A DNA stretch of 37,416 nt from the NCBI GenBank assembly GCA_015521115.1, contig WAOT01000017.1:1-37416 (forward strand). The letters run 5' to 3'. This document shows positions 31,363 to 37,416 of the stretch, in pieces; positions within the stretch are counted from its first letter, which is position 1, and each line of letters begins with the position of its first letter. The DNA is from Desulfurococcales archaeon. Its GTDB lineage: Archaea; Thermoproteota; Thermoprotei_A; Sulfolobales; Acidilobaceae. Both the position numbers and the translations under genes were made by a program. Below the pieces are notes generated by a model that worked only from the letters and a program-made list of their open reading frames with translations, was not told where the DNA came from and ran no database searches.

Positions 31363-32640
31363 ATGCATCATCTCCCTTTGAAGGGTTTTAGGTCTGCGTT
31401 CAAGGTTTTGATAGCCTTATTAATAATAATATACATGTTAAAAACCGTAATACCACCGCCAGTATCATACCTCTTCGGCTTCCTAGCCCAGGCCATCATA
31501 TCCTTCATGGTAATAGCCTTCATAGTGTTCATAGCCCTATACATAGGCTATACACTCCTCTCTGAAGCGGGTAGGGAGCTATCATCTGCCAAGTGGAGAT
31601 GGCGCGAGGAGATACGGAGGCGGGGAAGACTCCTATACGAGCAGAGGAGGACGTATAGACCCCGCATAGGCCATAGGCATCATAGAAGATCCAGCCCCCA
31701 GAGCCCAGGGCTTCGTAGGACAAGCTCTATCGCACCAAAACCGGTTGAGACTGAAGGGGTCTCCATGGGTGACACTAGCGGAGGTGCTGGCAGGGAGGAA
31801 GAGTTTCCATCGGCCCTGGCCTCGAGGTTCAAGCCCTTGCAGTTCATCGGGAGGGGAGGTTTCGCACGTGTATGGCTTGTAGAGTACCGTGGGGAGAGGT
31901 ATGCCCTCAAGATCCCAGTCCTCCCGAGGGAGGGTGGGGTTAGGGGTAAGATCCTGAGATCACTTACGAGGGAGGCAGTCCACTGGGAGGATCTCGGGAG
32001 CCACCCCAATATTGTAAGGCTCTACGAGTGGGGGCTCGAGCCCCTCCCATGGCTCCTCCTCGAGTACGTCGAGGGTCACAGAGAGGGTGGGAGGACTTAC
32101 AGGAGCCTTGCAGACCTACTGGCGTCGCGTGGAAGGCTACCACTCTGCACCTCCCTCCTCATAGCCCGTGACACGCTTTCAGCCCTGGAGCACGCTCATA
32201 GGAGGGAGATAGCCCACCTAGACGTTAAGCCCAGCAATATCCTACTAGTCCAGGGCCCAAGGGCTAAGCTGACAGACTGGGGTCTAAGCAGGGTGGCGTC
32301 GGGGGCTAGTAGTGTTAGCGGTGTTACACCAGCGTACATGGCACCGGAGCACACACCATTCTATTCCCGTGGGAAGGGTATCGGCTGGTGGACGGACATA
32401 TACCAGGCCGGCCTTGTACTATTCGAGATGCTCACAGGCCGGAACTACAACATGCTGATACAGGGGGGAGAAGACCCTGAAGAGGCATTAAAGGAAGCCC
32501 CTCACAGCCTGAAAGACCTATTGTGGAGGATGCTCTCGATAGACCCCAATAATAGGCCCAGCGCCCGCGACGCACTCACGGAGGTCAATAAACTGCTATC
32601 AGAGAGTTGCGGGGATCACGCCCCGACAATGCCATTATAA
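31363..32640 (+). CDS. Membrane-anchored Hanks-type serine/threonine protein kinase
   Basis: A 425-residue protein with two N-terminal membrane helices (about 12-30 and 35-62), a basic linker with His/Arg/Ser clusters (about 78-135), and a protein kinase domain (155-420). Kinase motifs: glycine loop GRGGFARV (163-170), ATP lysine 183 in ALKIP, catalytic loop HLDVKPSN (285-292, Asp287), metal-binding loop DWG (305-307) in place of DFG, and APE (327-329). The key residues are present, so it is probably active. The kinase faces the cytoplasm if the positive-inside rule is followed. The ATG at 31363 has GGGG/GAGGG just upstream. It is followed by the amidohydrolase on the same strand, 63 bases on, with no evident functional link. 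Confidence 0.88.
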   Translation: MHHLPLKGFRSAFKVLIALLIIIYMLKTVIPPPVSYLFGFLAQAIISFMVIAFIVFIALYIGYTLLSEAGRELSSAKWRWREEIRRRGRLLYEQRRTYRPRIGHRHHRRSSPQSPGLRRTSSIAPKPVETEGVSMGDTSGGAGREEEFPSALASRFKPLQFIGRGGFARVWLVEYRGERYALKIPVLPREGGVRGKILRSLTREAVHWEDLGSHPNIVRLYEWGLEPLPWLLLEYVEGHREGGRTYRSLADLLASRGRLPLCTSLLIARDTLSALEHAHRREIAHLDVKPSNILLVQGPRAKLTDWGLSRVASGASSVSGVTPAYMAPEHTPFYSRGKGIGWWTDIYQAGLVLFEMLTGRNYNMLIQGGEDPEEALKEAPHSLKDLLWRMLSIDPNNRPSARDALTEVNKLLSESCGDHAPTMPL

Positions 32641-32703: not shown

Positions 32704-34176
32704 GTGGCCTCATTCATTGTTAGGGCGGTTGAAGTCCTCTCCCACAGTCTCGAGCCCCTGGGGGACTCGGTCTTAGTGGATAACGGGGTCATAGTGAGGG
32801 TCGGCCGCGGGCTATCCCGAGGATATGCGGGAGAGGTCGTGGTGGACGGCTATGTGACACCCGCTTTTGTCGACGCTCACCTCCACCTCACGGGCATCGG
32901 CCTCTCAAGCATGGGGGTAGACTTGAGGGGGGCGAGGAGTGCTGAGGAGGTCGCTCTCATGATCTCCAAGGCGAGGGGGCCGATAGCGTATGGTAGGGGC
33001 TGGGATCAGGAGCTCTTCGAAAACCCAGAGGATCTCCCCACTAGGAGCCTCCTAGACAAGGTGGTGCCAGACAGGCCTGCCGTAGCCGTTAGAGTGTGCG
33101 GCCACATGGCCGTTGCTAACTCCCTCGCACTCAGGGAGAGCGGTGTCTCCACTAGGTACCCCGGGCTCGTCGACACTGAGAAGGGCATAGTCTATGAGGA
33201 CGCGGTTGAGGCCCTCATCAACCTCATCCTCACTCGGATAGACGTGGGGGCACTGGTCAAGAAAGCCCTGAAACTGTTAGTAGAGAACGGGATAGCCGGT
33301 GCTTCCAGTATGGCGTGCACGCCCTCGGAGGCCAGAGCCCTTGCTGACCTATACAGGGGATCCGTCACCCCTCCCGGGCCCCCAAGGGTGGCCTGCTACC
33401 CCGAGCCCAAGCACCTTGGGGAGGCCCTCAAAGCCCTCGCAGACTCCATGTACGTGGGCGTGGTTGGGATCAAACTATTCGCAGACGGCAGCCTAGGTGC
33501 GAGGACAGCACGCCTCTCAGCACCCTACAGCGACAGCCCCGGCACGAAAGGCCTCCTACTATTGGATGCCAACAAGATAGTCGAGGAAGCCCGCAGACAC
33601 CTAGCCAATAGCCTAAGAGTTGCGGTTCACGCCATCGGGGATGAGGCCCTAGACCACGTTATCAAGGCCTACCATACGCTAGGAGTGGGAGACAAGGGGA
33701 GGGTTGAGCATGCAAGCATAGTGAGGCCAGACCAGGTAGCGCAACTCTCTAGCCTCCAGGCACACGTAGTGGTGCAACCACACTTCAGGGTATCAGACTG
33801 GTGGATAGGCAAGCGCCTAGGCCCAGAGAGGCTGGGATGGGCATACCCCTTCAAGACCATCAAACAAGCGGGGATAAGGCTGGCCTTCTCAACAGACGCC
33901 CCAGTAGAGCCCCTCGACCCCCTAGAGACCATAAGAGCAGCAGAATCCCAATGCGACACACCCGCATGCCGCCCCGAGGAGGCCCTGAGCAGGAAAGATT
34001 CGTTCGAATCATACACCCACCACGCAGCCCAAGCCTCAGGAGGCCCCGTTGCGGTGCTGGGGAGAATAGGATCAGGGCACCCGGCACTCCTCATACAATT
34101 CCCAGACGACCCCCGCAGCCGACCCCTCGCAAGGCCCACCTGGATCCCCAGAGCTTCACCACAGCTCAACACCTAG
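32704..34176 (+). CDS. YtcJ-like metal-dependent amidohydrolase
   Basis: A protein of about 490 residues of the amidohydrolase superfamily, cleaving C-N or related bonds with a TIM-barrel metal centre. Motifs: DAHLHLTG (first metal His pair, about 57-64), GIKLFADGSLGARTA, VHAIGDEALD, RVEHASIV and FSTDAPVEPLDP (late Asp), matching the YtcJ/Exo1 branch. The substrate is unknown; relatives act on N-acyl compounds. GTG at 32704 is chosen because GGTGG lies 8 bases upstream; GTG at 32692 is a longer frame with no better site. Its 3' end overlaps the convergent HerA-type gene by 11 bases. Confidence 0.85.
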   Translation: MASFIVRAVEVLSHSLEPLGDSVLVDNGVIVRVGRGLSRGYAGEVVVDGYVTPAFVDAHLHLTGIGLSSMGVDLRGARSAEEVALMISKARGPIAYGRGWDQELFENPEDLPTRSLLDKVVPDRPAVAVRVCGHMAVANSLALRESGVSTRYPGLVDTEKGIVYEDAVEALINLILTRIDVGALVKKALKLLVENGIAGASSMACTPSEARALADLYRGSVTPPGPPRVACYPEPKHLGEALKALADSMYVGVVGIKLFADGSLGARTARLSAPYSDSPGTKGLLLLDANKIVEEARRHLANSLRVAVHAIGDEALDHVIKAYHTLGVGDKGRVEHASIVRPDQVAQLSSLQAHVVVQPHFRVSDWWIGKRLGPERLGWAYPFKTIKQAGIRLAFSTDAPVEPLDPLETIRAAESQCDTPACRPEEALSRKDSFESYTHHAAQASGGPVAVLGRIGSGHPALLIQFPDDPRSRPLARPTWIPRASPQLNT

Positions 34177-35842
34177 AAGCTGTCCTAAGGGCTACGCCCA
34201 TGAGGCGGTAAAGGTTTACCACGACCACTCCTTTAAGCCCTACTAGTAGGCGTGGTGCCCTCTTCATGCACTTCCTAGTGACACAGACTACCACAACCCT
34301 ATCATAGATATCGAGCCTACCCCTAATTTTCTCTCTCGACATGTTGGTGCCTGTCTCAACTTCTACAGCGATCGTCTCCCCACAGCACTCTACGAGGAGG
34401 TCGGGGGCTTTCCTGTCACGTAGGATTGTGGGGTCACAGCCTGCTCTTAAATAAGTCTCATACGACTTCACAACACCATATTCGTGCTCGGGGGACGGGT
34501 TCATCCCAGGGATCTTTATCAGTTTAGGCGGCCTTCCCGGGCCTCCTGTATAAACTGATACTGTCTTCACGCGAGCGCTCTCAGAGAGATACTTTAGGGC
34601 TGTATAGAAGGTCTTACCGTCTAACCCTAGTGCAGCCCTCCTCTCCCTCACGGAAAGCCATGGTCTCTCCCTAACTGATTTAAGTATGAGCTCGGCCGCG
34701 GGAGGGATATTATGGGGCTCGGGAACCTGTACCTTTACCCGTGTGGGGATAGGGAGACCGTCTCTGATCATGATCGCTTCTCCCCTCTCTAGTGCCTTGA
34801 CCTCTTCTAATACAACTCCTCTCCCGACTAGAGACTGTAGGGGCGGGGAGTCTGTTGCTGGCAGGCGGAATATCGCATAGTTCCCTATGTAGTCTAAGTA
34901 GCGCCTATCTAATCCGGTGAAGCCGTGTACAACCATGACCATTCCTACACCCCTCTTCCTGTAGTGTGCAAGGTCTATGAGTAGTGGCGAGTCATAGAAG
35001 GGGCCCGGGCGGAGGTAGTGGTCGGCCTCCTCCAGCACTATGAGGTAGTCGGCCTTAGACTTTGAGGGGCTCCTAGCCATGACCTGGGCCCTCAGCCTAG
35101 CCATAGCCATTTCCGCAACAGTCCTGGCAATAAGTCTCGACCTCCTCGACAGGGGAGATAGGTCTATCACTATCCTCCTCCTAAGGGCATTCATAAGGTC
35201 ATCCGTATCCCTGGTTAAACTGGACAGGGGGCCGTCGAGGAGCAGGTCAAGCCTATATAGGACTGCCATGCTCGTCTGCTGCCTCACCTCTCCCTGGAGA
35301 CCTCTAAGCCCCTCTCTGAAGCAAGAGCTCCCTACAGCCTTCTTGTAAACGCAGCTCTTAACCGCAAATTTAATGGCGAAAGACATGGGCGCTGAGACCT
35401 CCCAGCCCATACCCTTAATATAATCGGTCAAGGTAGTAGACAAGGCGTGGACGTACTCTGACTCGTCCATACCTGGTGGGGGCCTCCATAGTGCGAGTGA
35501 CATTTTATCGGCTCTTAACAGATCCGCCCCTGCCAGCGAAGATAGAGGGGCATATTCTCCCTCATAGTCATAAACTATGAACCCTAATCCGAGACGGAGA
35601 GACTCGAGGAGGAGACCCTTGACAAGAGTTGTCTTCCCACTCCCAACTACACCAGCAATAAGTAAGTTCCTGGAGAGCTCCTCCGGTGTAAAGTAGTAGG
35701 GCTCTCCAAAAGAGGTATATCCCACTCTGAGTGCGGCGTCTGAGACGTCCCGGTCAACACGTGCAGGGGTGACGTCGTCCTGCCGTATACCCTCCGGGCA
35801 CCCGACATAGACGCACTCAAAAGCGTCACCCCTCAAACTCAT
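34166..35842 (-). CDS. HerA/DUF87-type ATPase fused to winged helix and nuclease-like domain
   Basis: A 558-residue protein with three parts. Residues 40-370 are a HerA/FtsK-like ATPase: Walker A GVVGSGKTT (64-72), Walker B YLIVLEEADH (266-275) with the catalytic Glu, and MVMVVHGFTG. Residues 380-445 look like a winged helix-turn-helix (VRERRAALGLDGKTFYTALKYLSES). Residues 455-540 resemble a PD-(D/E)XK nuclease fold: PDLLVE (480-485), then AVEVETG with E494 and E496 in place of the usual D/E-x-K. The terminal Lys of the motif is absent, so catalysis is unsure. The ATG overlaps the stop of the zinc-ribbon gene before it (ATGA), showing coupling. Probably a DNA translocase or a defence or mobile-element processing protein. 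Confidence 0.75.
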   Translation of the reverse strand: MSLRGDAFECVYVGCPEGIRQDDVTPARVDRDVSDAALRVGYTSFGEPYYFTPEELSRNLLIAGVVGSGKTTLVKGLLLESLRLGLGFIVYDYEGEYAPLSSLAGADLLRADKMSLALWRPPPGMDESEYVHALSTTLTDYIKGMGWEVSAPMSFAIKFAVKSCVYKKAVGSSCFREGLRGLQGEVRQQTSMAVLYRLDLLLDGPLSSLTRDTDDLMNALRRRIVIDLSPLSRRSRLIARTVAEMAMARLRAQVMARSPSKSKADYLIVLEEADHYLRPGPFYDSPLLIDLAHYRKRGVGMVMVVHGFTGLDRRYLDYIGNYAIFRLPATDSPPLQSLVGRGVVLEEVKALERGEAIMIRDGLPIPTRVKVQVPEPHNIPPAAELILKSVRERPWLSVRERRAALGLDGKTFYTALKYLSESARVKTVSVYTGGPGRPPKLIKIPGMNPSPEHEYGVVKSYETYLRAGCDPTILRDRKAPDLLVECCGETIAVEVETGTNMSREKIRGRLDIYDRVVVVCVTRKCMKRAPRLLVGLKGVVVVNLYRLMGVALRTASRC

Positions 35843-36327
35843 ATCACCCTGGGCACCAGGATCCTAATGGCCACAGAGCCCTCCCCTCTCGGTTGGCGCA
35901 CTACTAACTCCCTAGGCGGGTGTATACCGTGTTCTCCCTCTAGCACATCATTATATGTTTCATCTCTTTCTCCTCCCTCTACCTGCATACTACTGTCCGC
36001 CTGTGCTACCATACCGAAGTCCTCGCCACCATAGTAGGGCGTGGCCAGGCTACTACCGTCATTCCTGGGCCTATGCCTCAACCGATATAGGGTTAGAAAT
36101 TTTCTAACCCTCTTCTCTGCTGCAAGTACTAGGCTGGGGGGTATAGGGCTCTTGCAGTGTCGGCAGTAGCCTCCTTCAACAGGTGTTATTCGGAGACAGT
36201 TTGGGCACACAACTAGGCCTTCCGGTAGCTCGAGCTTAGTTGGTAGGGGGCTCTTGCAGTGATAGCAGACGCCTTTGTCCGTGGGTGTCATCCTGCCGCA
36301 GACTATACATTGTATATACCTGGCCAT
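35839..36327 (-). CDS. Double zinc-ribbon protein
   Basis: 162 residues with two near-identical zinc knuckles: C7/C10/C21/C24 and C41/C44/C55/C58, each ending in HCKSP. The rest is low-complexity and acidic (SSMQVEGGERDETYNDVLEGEHG), then a basic end. No catalytic motif. It probably binds nucleic acid or bridges proteins. GTG at 36333 is in frame, but ATG at 36327 has GGTGAG 5 bases upstream and is preferred. It sits between the second zinc-ribbon gene (39-base gap) and the HerA-type gene (4-base overlap), so it is likely an accessory or regulator of that ATPase. Confidence 0.75.
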   Translation of the reverse strand: MARYIQCIVCGRMTPTDKGVCYHCKSPLPTKLELPEGLVVCPNCLRITPVEGGYCRHCKSPIPPSLVLAAEKRVRKFLTLYRLRHRPRNDGSSLATPYYGGEDFGMVAQADSSMQVEGGERDETYNDVLEGEHGIHPPRELVVRQPRGEGSVAIRILVPRVI

Positions 36328-36366
36328 GCCCACTCACCACTGTATCCGTGCCCCTTTGCGGATCTA

Positions 36367-36981
36367 TTACACCCTAACGACCTTCGGCGGTTTCGTGTCG
36401 ACCTCATCGCTACCTTCTACATCGTTGGACTCGCGAGAGGAGAGTGTAACAGTTTCACTAGCGAGACTACTAACGACGATATCGTTTGTCTTATCAATAT
36501 TATATTTCTCGAAGTGATCTATGTCATCATAAACTAGAGTGCGGAAGGGCGTGTACTCTATTACTTCCTTCATAACAAGCCCCTGGTGAGGCCAATTTAT
36601 GAGCTGCTCGATCCCTTTATCCTCGGGCCTAGCCACCTTAATGTCAATCCCCTTAATCTCCCTCTTATTAGTGTCGAATTTAATCCCTACAAATGCATAA
36701 AACAGGTTTCCACACACAGGACACTTAAGAGGGTTCGCCAGGTGGGTCTCCCTGAACCTAACATTAGGGACATGCCTAACCCCGTCAGCCTCAAACATCT
36801 CAGGATCAACGTCCTCTGCAACCAGACCCAAGGTCTTAGCCCCGAGAATAGCACTACAATGAGGACACGTTAGATGCCGTATTATGACAATAGCTGCAAT
36901 CCTAGTAGTCAGCTTCCTCCGCCTCCCACTTAGAAACCGAAAAATAGACATTGAGGCCCTAGAAGCCCGGATCACAGCCAA
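36367..36981 (-). CDS. Zinc-ribbon protein, first gene of the HerA operon
   Basis: 204 residues with cysteine pairs CPHC (C39, C42) and CPVC (C87, C90) that would form one ribbon split by a beta-rich insert, preceded by a basic and weakly hydrophobic N-terminal region. A long acidic C-terminal tail (DKTNDIVVSSLASETVTLSSRESND) follows. TTG at 36981 has GGAGG 7 bases upstream and a TATA box near 37011-37018; ATG at 36951 has no ribosome-binding site. It leads a three-gene unit with the double zinc-ribbon protein and the HerA-type ATPase. Function unknown. Confidence 0.7.
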   Translation of the reverse strand: MAVIRASRASMSIFRFLSGRRRKLTTRIAAIVIIRHLTCPHCSAILGAKTLGLVAEDVDPEMFEADGVRHVPNVRFRETHLANPLKCPVCGNLFYAFVGIKFDTNKREIKGIDIKVARPEDKGIEQLINWPHQGLVMKEVIEYTPFRTLVYDDIDHFEKYNIDKTNDIVVSSLASETVTLSSRESNDVEGSDEVDTKPPKVVRV

Positions 36982-36993
36982 CTTTCAACCTCC

Positions 36994-37018
36994 AGAGGGT
37001 ACACCCTCTAACTATATA
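36994..37018 (-). promoter_or_regulatory. Promoter with palindromic operator for the HerA operon
   Basis: TATA-like CTATATAG (37011-37018) predicts transcription starting near 36988. Between it and the first gene lies AGAGGGT-AC-ACCCTCT (36994-37009), a 7-base inverted repeat with two central bases, overlapping the presumed start. A dimeric repressor bound here would block initiation. Both elements are seen; regulation is inferred. Confidence 0.5.
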
Positions 37019-37416
37019 GAGTGCAGACTAAGACCAAAGTCTGTTATATATAAAGGGGCTAAGTACCTCACACCAATATTAAAAATATGAAACCCGGATA
37101 TCATCCTCCCTCCACAAAAATGGACGCCATTTAAAAACCTAACGCCCCAACACCTCCACAAAACCAATTAACAAAACCCTGAACCCTCCACAAACACCAC
37201 CCACCCCCTCCACAAAACCTCTCCAAACCCCCAATCGAATTCCCCAAAAATGGCGGCCTGGAAAAGAGGTGATATCAGGAACCGCCCAAATCTAGACCTG
37301 GGTTTAAAGCATAGAATTCATCTATAACATCACTTTGTCCATCTTCCACCTATTCATTCTCTACCTCAGAATCTTAGGTGGAGAACGATATAACATGTAG
37401 CAGGTGTAGACATAAC
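37019..37416. other. Right-end non-coding stretch
   Basis: About 400 bases without a convincing gene. It contains AAATGG-ACG-CCATTT (about 37117-37131), a strongly G-poor segment (about 37132-37250), a TATA-like GGTTTAAAGC (about 37303-37312), and an imperfect hairpin TCTCTACCT/AGGTGGAGA near 37358-37385. The last 30 bases do not match a CRISPR repeat I know. A promoter for a gene beyond the window is possible. Confidence 0.4.
37109..37217 (+). repeat. Four copies of CCTCCACAAA in a G-depleted tract
   Basis: CCTCCACAAA(A) occurs at 37109, 37153, 37185 and 37207 with unequal spacing (44, 32, 22 bases). Read on minus each copy is TTTTGTGGAGG, an A/T-then-GGAGG element. The intervening plus strand is almost free of G. 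Not tandem and not CRISPR-like; the role is unknown. Confidence 0.55.

Follow-up and report, generated by a model that had tools for sequence, protein, structure and literature searches.

What does an operon do that joins a HerA-type ATPase, a nuclease-like domain and two zinc-ribbon proteins, and does it belong to any of the HerA systems already described? The question is raised by a contig of a Desulfurococcales archaeon (WAOT01000017.1), analysed here over its whole stretch of 37,416 nucleotides (the window). Three genes on the minus strand make up the operon. The first encodes the zinc-ribbon protein ZR1 (36367–36981; 204 amino acids (aa), TTG start), with a GGAGG at 36989–36993, 7 nt before the start codon. 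It is followed by DZR (35839–36333; 164 aa), assigned as a double zinc ribbon from Pfam DZR and an alignment, and by the ATPase (34166–35842; 558 aa), which combines a HerA/FtsK-type motor, a winged helix and a PD-(D/E)XK domain and whose start overlaps the DZR stop as ATGA. The sequence-only reading of this DNA had described a fused ATPase, ATGA coupling to a double zinc ribbon and a second zinc-ribbon gene in first position, all of which are present. The conservation of order and strand in other genomes exceeds chance and confirms that ZR1-DZR-ATPase is a real three-gene unit.

Full-length relatives of the ATPase were found by genome search in eight related genomes. The order ZR1-DZR-ATPase, on a single strand, recurs in seven other genomes (loci L032, L034, L035, L036, L037, L083 and L101); L102 has the altered order DZR-ZR1-ATPase, and in L113 the contig ends after ZR1 and DZR. 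Among 214 genomes of the order, with a cut-off of E <= 1e-50 for the ATPase, the ATPase occurs in 11 and ZR1 in 10, with both in 8. The earlier reading was to be judged by whether the gene order is conserved and the zinc-ribbon genes are tied to the ATPase; the seven genomes and this tight co-occurrence bear it out on both counts. In the genomes with only one of the two genes, the absence of the other is accounted for by the end of a contig, by the rearrangement of one contig or by a pseudogene. In two ATPase-only genomes (G021 and G010) the contigs stop upstream of the ATPase or DZR. The third, G032, has a short contig on which a fragment of DV2, a gene of the surrounding island described below, reaches the ATPase and only the tail of DZR remains (L007, 267–1247, minus strand); this fragment is 58% identical to the DV2 of L113, and the locus may have been altered through deletion, rearrangement or misassembly. 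ZR1 occurs without the ATPase at a contig end in G012 and as a pseudogene in G019. Because the G019 gene is decayed, with five stops (C22:26158–26487, L125), and no ATPase remnant was found in that genome, we conclude that G019 has lost the operon.

In the ATPase tree the window sequence joins that of G021, a Thermodiscus metagenome-assembled genome, with 47% identity and 100/100 support. It stands apart from its congeners G002 and G004, with which it shares 33% identity, and two other congeners lack the ATPase. This placement with G021 rather than with congeners suggests that the operon has moved horizontally. Within one genus (G016 and G024) it has been kept vertically, with the same flanks.

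The predicted activities of the ATPase follow from its domains. It matches Pfam DUF87/HerA above the Pfam cut-off (E 3.8e-6), and its RecA-like core (aa 38–375; 34718–35731, minus strand) has a Walker A motif GSGKT, a Walker B motif ..EEAD and a conserved arginine in RKRG. Nine aligned ATPases share G67/G69-K70-T71, EEA(D/E) including E272-A273, and R295. The full-length model has a mean predicted local distance difference test score (pLDDT) of 83.7, with aa 1–34 disordered (pLDDT < 50), and its motor is matched best in Foldseek by the C-terminal domain of DndH (7es4, 1.1e-15), then by Sulfolobus HerA (4d2i, 3.1e-15). The Walker motifs, the arginine and the RecA-like fold place the ATPase in the HerA/FtsK motor superfamily. 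It is not a canonical HerA: the core begins at aa 38, the model contains no folded N-terminal HAS-type barrel, and the HerA_Thermprot model scores 21.5 bits against a cut-off of 800. A winged-helix-like domain (aa 376–435; 34538–34717, minus strand) was assigned solely from the secondary structure of the model, in which helices 381–392, 398–405 and 409–421 are followed by strands 426–429 and 440–443.

The C-terminal domain (aa 436–558; 34169–34537, minus strand) carries the invariant residues H453, D481 and E494-x-E496. Its 123 residues were folded separately with AlphaFold on a 16-sequence alignment, giving a model with pLDDT 93.2 composed of helix 16–31, strands 35–38, 47–51 and 54–61, helix 68–77 and strand 80–85, that is, the order alpha-beta-beta-beta-alpha-beta of the PD-(D/E)XK layout. 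Invariant over the 16 sequences, in domain numbering, are G1, H18, D46, E59 and E61, with D46 just ahead of strand 2 and E59-x-E61 on strand 3, the standard PD-(D/E)XK placement. The top Foldseek matches are weak (best E 0.003) and mostly PD-(D/E)XK proteins: YaeQ, HindIII, archaeal Hjc, VRR_NUC, FokI and Bax1. No named family was matched in Pfam or among PDB sequences. Modelling supports a PD-(D/E)XK nuclease fold, as had been proposed. Because the acids are placed as in PD-(D/E)XK proteins and the best fold matches mostly belong to that group, a functional metal site is likely.

Both partner proteins have the cysteines of zinc ribbons. DZR matches the Pfam Double zinc ribbon family (E 3.6e-6) and in alignment has eight cysteines, four in each ribbon, and a variable tail. 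ZR1 matches no Pfam family above cut-off; it has a split zinc ribbon with two CxxC pairs (C39/C42 and C87/C90) invariant across 6 relatives, as well as the conserved motifs F(R/K)xTHLxNP and WPHxGLV.

The operon had also been proposed to be regulated, through a palindromic operator over its transcription start. A TATA-like box, TTTATATATAA, lies at 37044–37054 on the minus strand, and just downstream of this TATA-like TTATATATAAA (37044–37054) a dyad CAGACT-N8-AGTCTG is indeed present at 37024–37043. Its arms are only 6 bp long, 3 such pairs occur in the upstream region where 0.8 would be expected, and no conserved counterpart was found in the upstream regions of the relatives; we therefore reject this weak, unconserved palindrome as the main operator. 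The proposal of a regulated operator is borne out only in part. Beside the palindrome are four CCTCCACAAA repeats (37109–37217, against 0.09 expected across the whole window), a stronger cis element that had been overlooked. On the minus strand, TTTTGTGGAGG occurs at 37109–37119, 37153–37163 and 37207–37217, and TTTGTGGAGG at 37185–37194. There are four copies of TTTTGTGGAGG genome-wide, three upstream of the operon and one, chance-like, within an open reading frame (ORF) on contig C31.

As the CCTCCACAAA repeats were spotted post hoc in the window, the relatives, chiefly L113, served as the test. The upstream regions of seven loci together have 16 forward copies of TTTGTGG and one reverse, where about 1 forward copy is expected (0.01–0.26 per region), and L113, examined after the motif had been defined, has two. 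It was not found upstream of L101, L102 or L034, the last having GTGGA variants instead. Neighbouring repeats are spaced by 22, 32, 44, 54, 54, 53, 31, 33, 54 and 87, a phasing of about 10.9 bp that none of 20,000 random sets equalled (0.00015 when L035 is excluded). The resulting P of about 1e-4 is post hoc and comes from 9–10 spacings, with the period searched from 9.8 to 11.3 bp and best at 10.9 bp. Such phasing points to a protein binding one helix face, which, bound to the TTTTGTGGAGG repeats, probably controls expression of the operon.

Around the operon lies an island of variable composition. Where the sequence extends past the upstream region, a gene that we call DV1 is divergently transcribed from the operon, in L034 (1996–4494, minus strand), L036 (5530–7560, minus strand), L113 (9009–10487, minus strand), L032, L037 and L083, and its first residues are seen in L035, making seven genomes. 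The product (490–830 aa) contains hydrophobic stretches as well as conserved cysteines, some of them in a CYGxYID motif. A second large gene, DV2, comes after DV1 in L034 and L036 and, judged by its position, also in L113. Neither has a family in Pfam, PADLOC or PHROGs, and a search found no DV1 in the assembly of the window genome. Past DV2 come same-strand cassettes of a PIN_2 toxin and a small antitoxin (VapBC) and nucleotidyltransferase/HEPN (MNT/HEPN) pairs; L033 differs in having its PIN genes downstream of the ATPase. The PIN_2-linked antitoxins have in common a promoter-like GATATAAAC block and the N-terminal sequence ITIEVEVPE, and the cassettes look as if they had been duplicated and swapped. 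In two tandem arrays (L116, 9693–14492, and L115, 3127–11843, both minus strand), the antitoxin promoter and N-terminus are near-constant within a genome, and the remainder and the toxins vary.

PIN_2 matches cluster at the locus in G002 (5 of 5), G016 (5 of 7), G012 (4 of 6, fragments counted) and G010 (4 of 7), and are sparser in operon-free relatives (20 matches in 27 genomes versus 33 in 13). In our view the toxin-antitoxin array does not prove a function, because PIN_2 also occurs without the operon and toxin-antitoxin genes pile up in islands of every kind. In G002 and G004 an E1-like, E2-like and JAB-like trio stands between DV1 and ZR1 (L034, 4730–6948, minus strand), with Pfam matches to ThiF (1.8e-15), UQ_con (2.6e-4) and JAB (4.6e-5), the latter two under the Pfam cut-off; it is a putative ubiquitin-like conjugation operon within the same island. 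In the window genome, contig C1 begins (1–600, L122) within two pairs of decayed VapBC genes that resemble the G002 ones. We infer that C1 continues the window contig (C16) across the assembly gap at its end, position 37416, and the orientation fits. C1 also carries a 724-aa ORF (L122, 6593–8767) related to a membrane-anchored protein kinase (Pkinase 1.9e-34) that the window encodes at 31363–32640 (plus strand), two genes away from the operon.

A sister family of loci (L093–L097), from the same phylum but other families, encodes an ATPase with the architecture zinc ribbon-HerA motor-winged helix-turn-helix (wHTH)-PD-(D/E)XK. In three of the five (L093, L094 and L095) two small zinc-ribbon ORFs lie just upstream, as in the window operon. 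The zinc-ribbon sequences are unlike those of the main family, the Lys following E-x-E is not kept, and these loci mostly adjoin integrase and Cdc6-like genes: L094, L095 and L096 lie close to a tyrosine recombinase gene and to a Cdc6-like gene, the latter identified in L094 and homologous in L095 and L096. AbiEi/AbiEii genes are close by in L093 and L096, and L093 also has an Eco57I/MmeI-type methylase. Beside the sister ATPase, L093 (5331–7289, plus strand) and L094 (1718–5131, minus strand) encode proteins of unknown family, of 652 and 1137 aa, that are 80% identical over about 650 aa. Since other families of the phylum have this ATPase architecture too, often with a pair of zinc-ribbon ORFs, the operon is no local curiosity.

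Tentatively, and at close to even chances, we favour a role for the operon as a DNA translocase-nuclease that acts against invading DNA. The ATPase would assemble into a hexameric, HerA-like ring and use ATP to pump double-stranded DNA. Selecting or holding that DNA would fall to the winged helix and the zinc ribbons (the ribbons being two separate proteins, joined in many relatives by one at the ATPase N-terminus), and the ring-borne PD-(D/E)XK domains would cut the passing DNA. The target would be virus or plasmid DNA and the operon a variant form of the "capture" systems, which combine HerA/FtsK with a nuclease; it may act together with the toxin-antitoxin cassettes of its island and with the E1/E2/JAB operon where a genome has one there. 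We favour this role because patchy, horizontally moved modules of motor, nuclease and DNA-binding domains, in islands with many toxin-antitoxin and ubiquitin-like genes, resemble capture systems. It is also supported by the tight co-occurrence of the three genes, by the intact motor motifs and the invariant acids of the nuclease-like domain, by the best motor fold match, which is to the HerA/FtsK domain of DndH, a restriction protein, by the tRNA-Ala gene close to the ATPase in G002 and G004, by the separate HerA-NurA pair of the genome, and by the AbiE and methylase genes adjoining the sister family. Several observations weigh against it: no conserved modification enzyme or self/non-self discriminator was found in the locus; PADLOC matches are partial and confined to the motor core (best mad8, 3.2e-11); toxin-antitoxin genes stabilise plasmids too; and, given the integrase and Cdc6-like neighbours of the sister family, the module may work for a mobile element and not for cell defence. 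More speculatively, and rather improbably, the operon, DV1/DV2 and the toxin-antitoxin cassettes could be a single system, in which a repeat-controlled motor-nuclease, sensing or processing DNA, would be linked to swappable PIN/HEPN-type toxins; the near-constant promoter and N-terminus shared by their antitoxins would, on that equally doubtful model, belong to the same arrangement.

The strongest rival to a conflict role, possible although we think it somewhat doubtful, is that the operon is the DNA-processing module of an integrated plasmid or island, serving the transfer, resolution or segregation of the element's own DNA; with similar reservations, the phased repeats could be an iteron- or centromere-like site and the toxin-antitoxin array could stabilise the element. 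The repeats are confined to the locus apart from the one chance-like copy, the island abuts a tRNA-Ala gene in G002 and G004 (about 180–300 bp past the ATPase), the distribution is patchy and horizontally moved, and L094, L095 and L096 have their recombinase and Cdc6-like genes. However, no relative of the ATPase was found among 72,556 plasmid or 50,697 phage records, ATPase, ZR1 and DV1 all lack relatives in IMG/VR viral contigs, which leads us to reject a viral origin, no integrase or replication gene was found in those ORFs of the main-family flanks that were scanned, and G016 and G024 have kept the locus vertically. The island context thus favours a conflict role and the neighbours of the sister family favour a mobile origin, so that the range first proposed from sequence, DNA processing, defence or a mobile element, still fits.

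Repair and DNA import are less likely than either. A lineage-specific variant of HerA-NurA end resection for double-strand-break repair would likewise join a motor of this superfamily to a nuclease, but the window genome already has a canonical HerA (C52:4620–6104, E 1.3e-123) adjoining NurA (C52:6228–7226). This separate pair excludes a housekeeping HerA identity and makes the operon an extra system. No nurA adjoins the ATPase: the genome has three NurA matches, which all lie on other contigs, one of them by the canonical HerA; the operon, in which NurA was not found, has a nuclease of PD-(D/E)XK layout, no mre11/rad50-like gene was noticed adjoining it, and it is missing from most relatives, unlike a repair core. 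We regard repair as improbable. Still less credible is a component of a Ced-like crenarchaeal DNA-import system, as a match to NCBIfam CedD (2.1e-6) and the hydrophobic stretches of DV1 might suggest. The match spans about 47 residues around the P-loop and scores 26.7 bits against a cut-off of 600, and being a P-loop match only, it leads us to reject CedD membership; PMC11868833 describes CedD as a CedB paralogue related to VirB4, which also counts against this reading; and the locus showed no recognisable CedA-like gene, although no search was aimed at CedA-type neighbours.

To our knowledge, defences other than CRISPR are poorly known in hyperthermophilic archaea, and this operon appears to bring them a compact motor-nuclease system whose partners and control region are defined. 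With motor, winged helix and nuclease in a single chain, it is also a handy object for studying how HerA-type pumps feed a nuclease. The three-gene arrangement had not been recognised by the sequence-only reading, and no description of such an operon was found in the open-access papers searched; PADLOC, NCBIfam and PHROGs give no full-length family match for the ATPase, only partial matches to its core.

Among known systems, HerA-NurA is similar in pairing a HerA-type motor with a nuclease, but here the nuclease is fused and PD-(D/E)XK-like, the HAS-type barrel is lacking and the system is additional to the housekeeping pair. The SIR2-HerA and DUF4297-HerA anti-phage systems likewise combine a HerA ring with an effector enzyme, and their motors are good structural matches; however, there is no SIR2 or DUF4297 match here, the effector is C-terminal and of PD-(D/E)XK type, and NCBIfam HerA_antiphage scores 27 against a cut-off of 800. 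The proposed capture systems, DndH included, combine HerA/FtsK with a restriction endonuclease (REase) and wHTH (PMC10853773). The ATPase has this combination, with the wHTH taken from secondary structure alone, and shares with capture systems an occurrence in conflict islands. No conserved Orc/Cdc6, inactive REase, DndF or DndG partner was found in the main family: the operon and those island ORFs that were scanned gave no Orc/Cdc6 or DndFG-type partner, and a Cdc6-like gene was seen only near the sister family. The operon differs further from capture systems in uniting motor, wHTH and nuclease in one 558-aa chain and in adding two zinc-ribbon partner genes.

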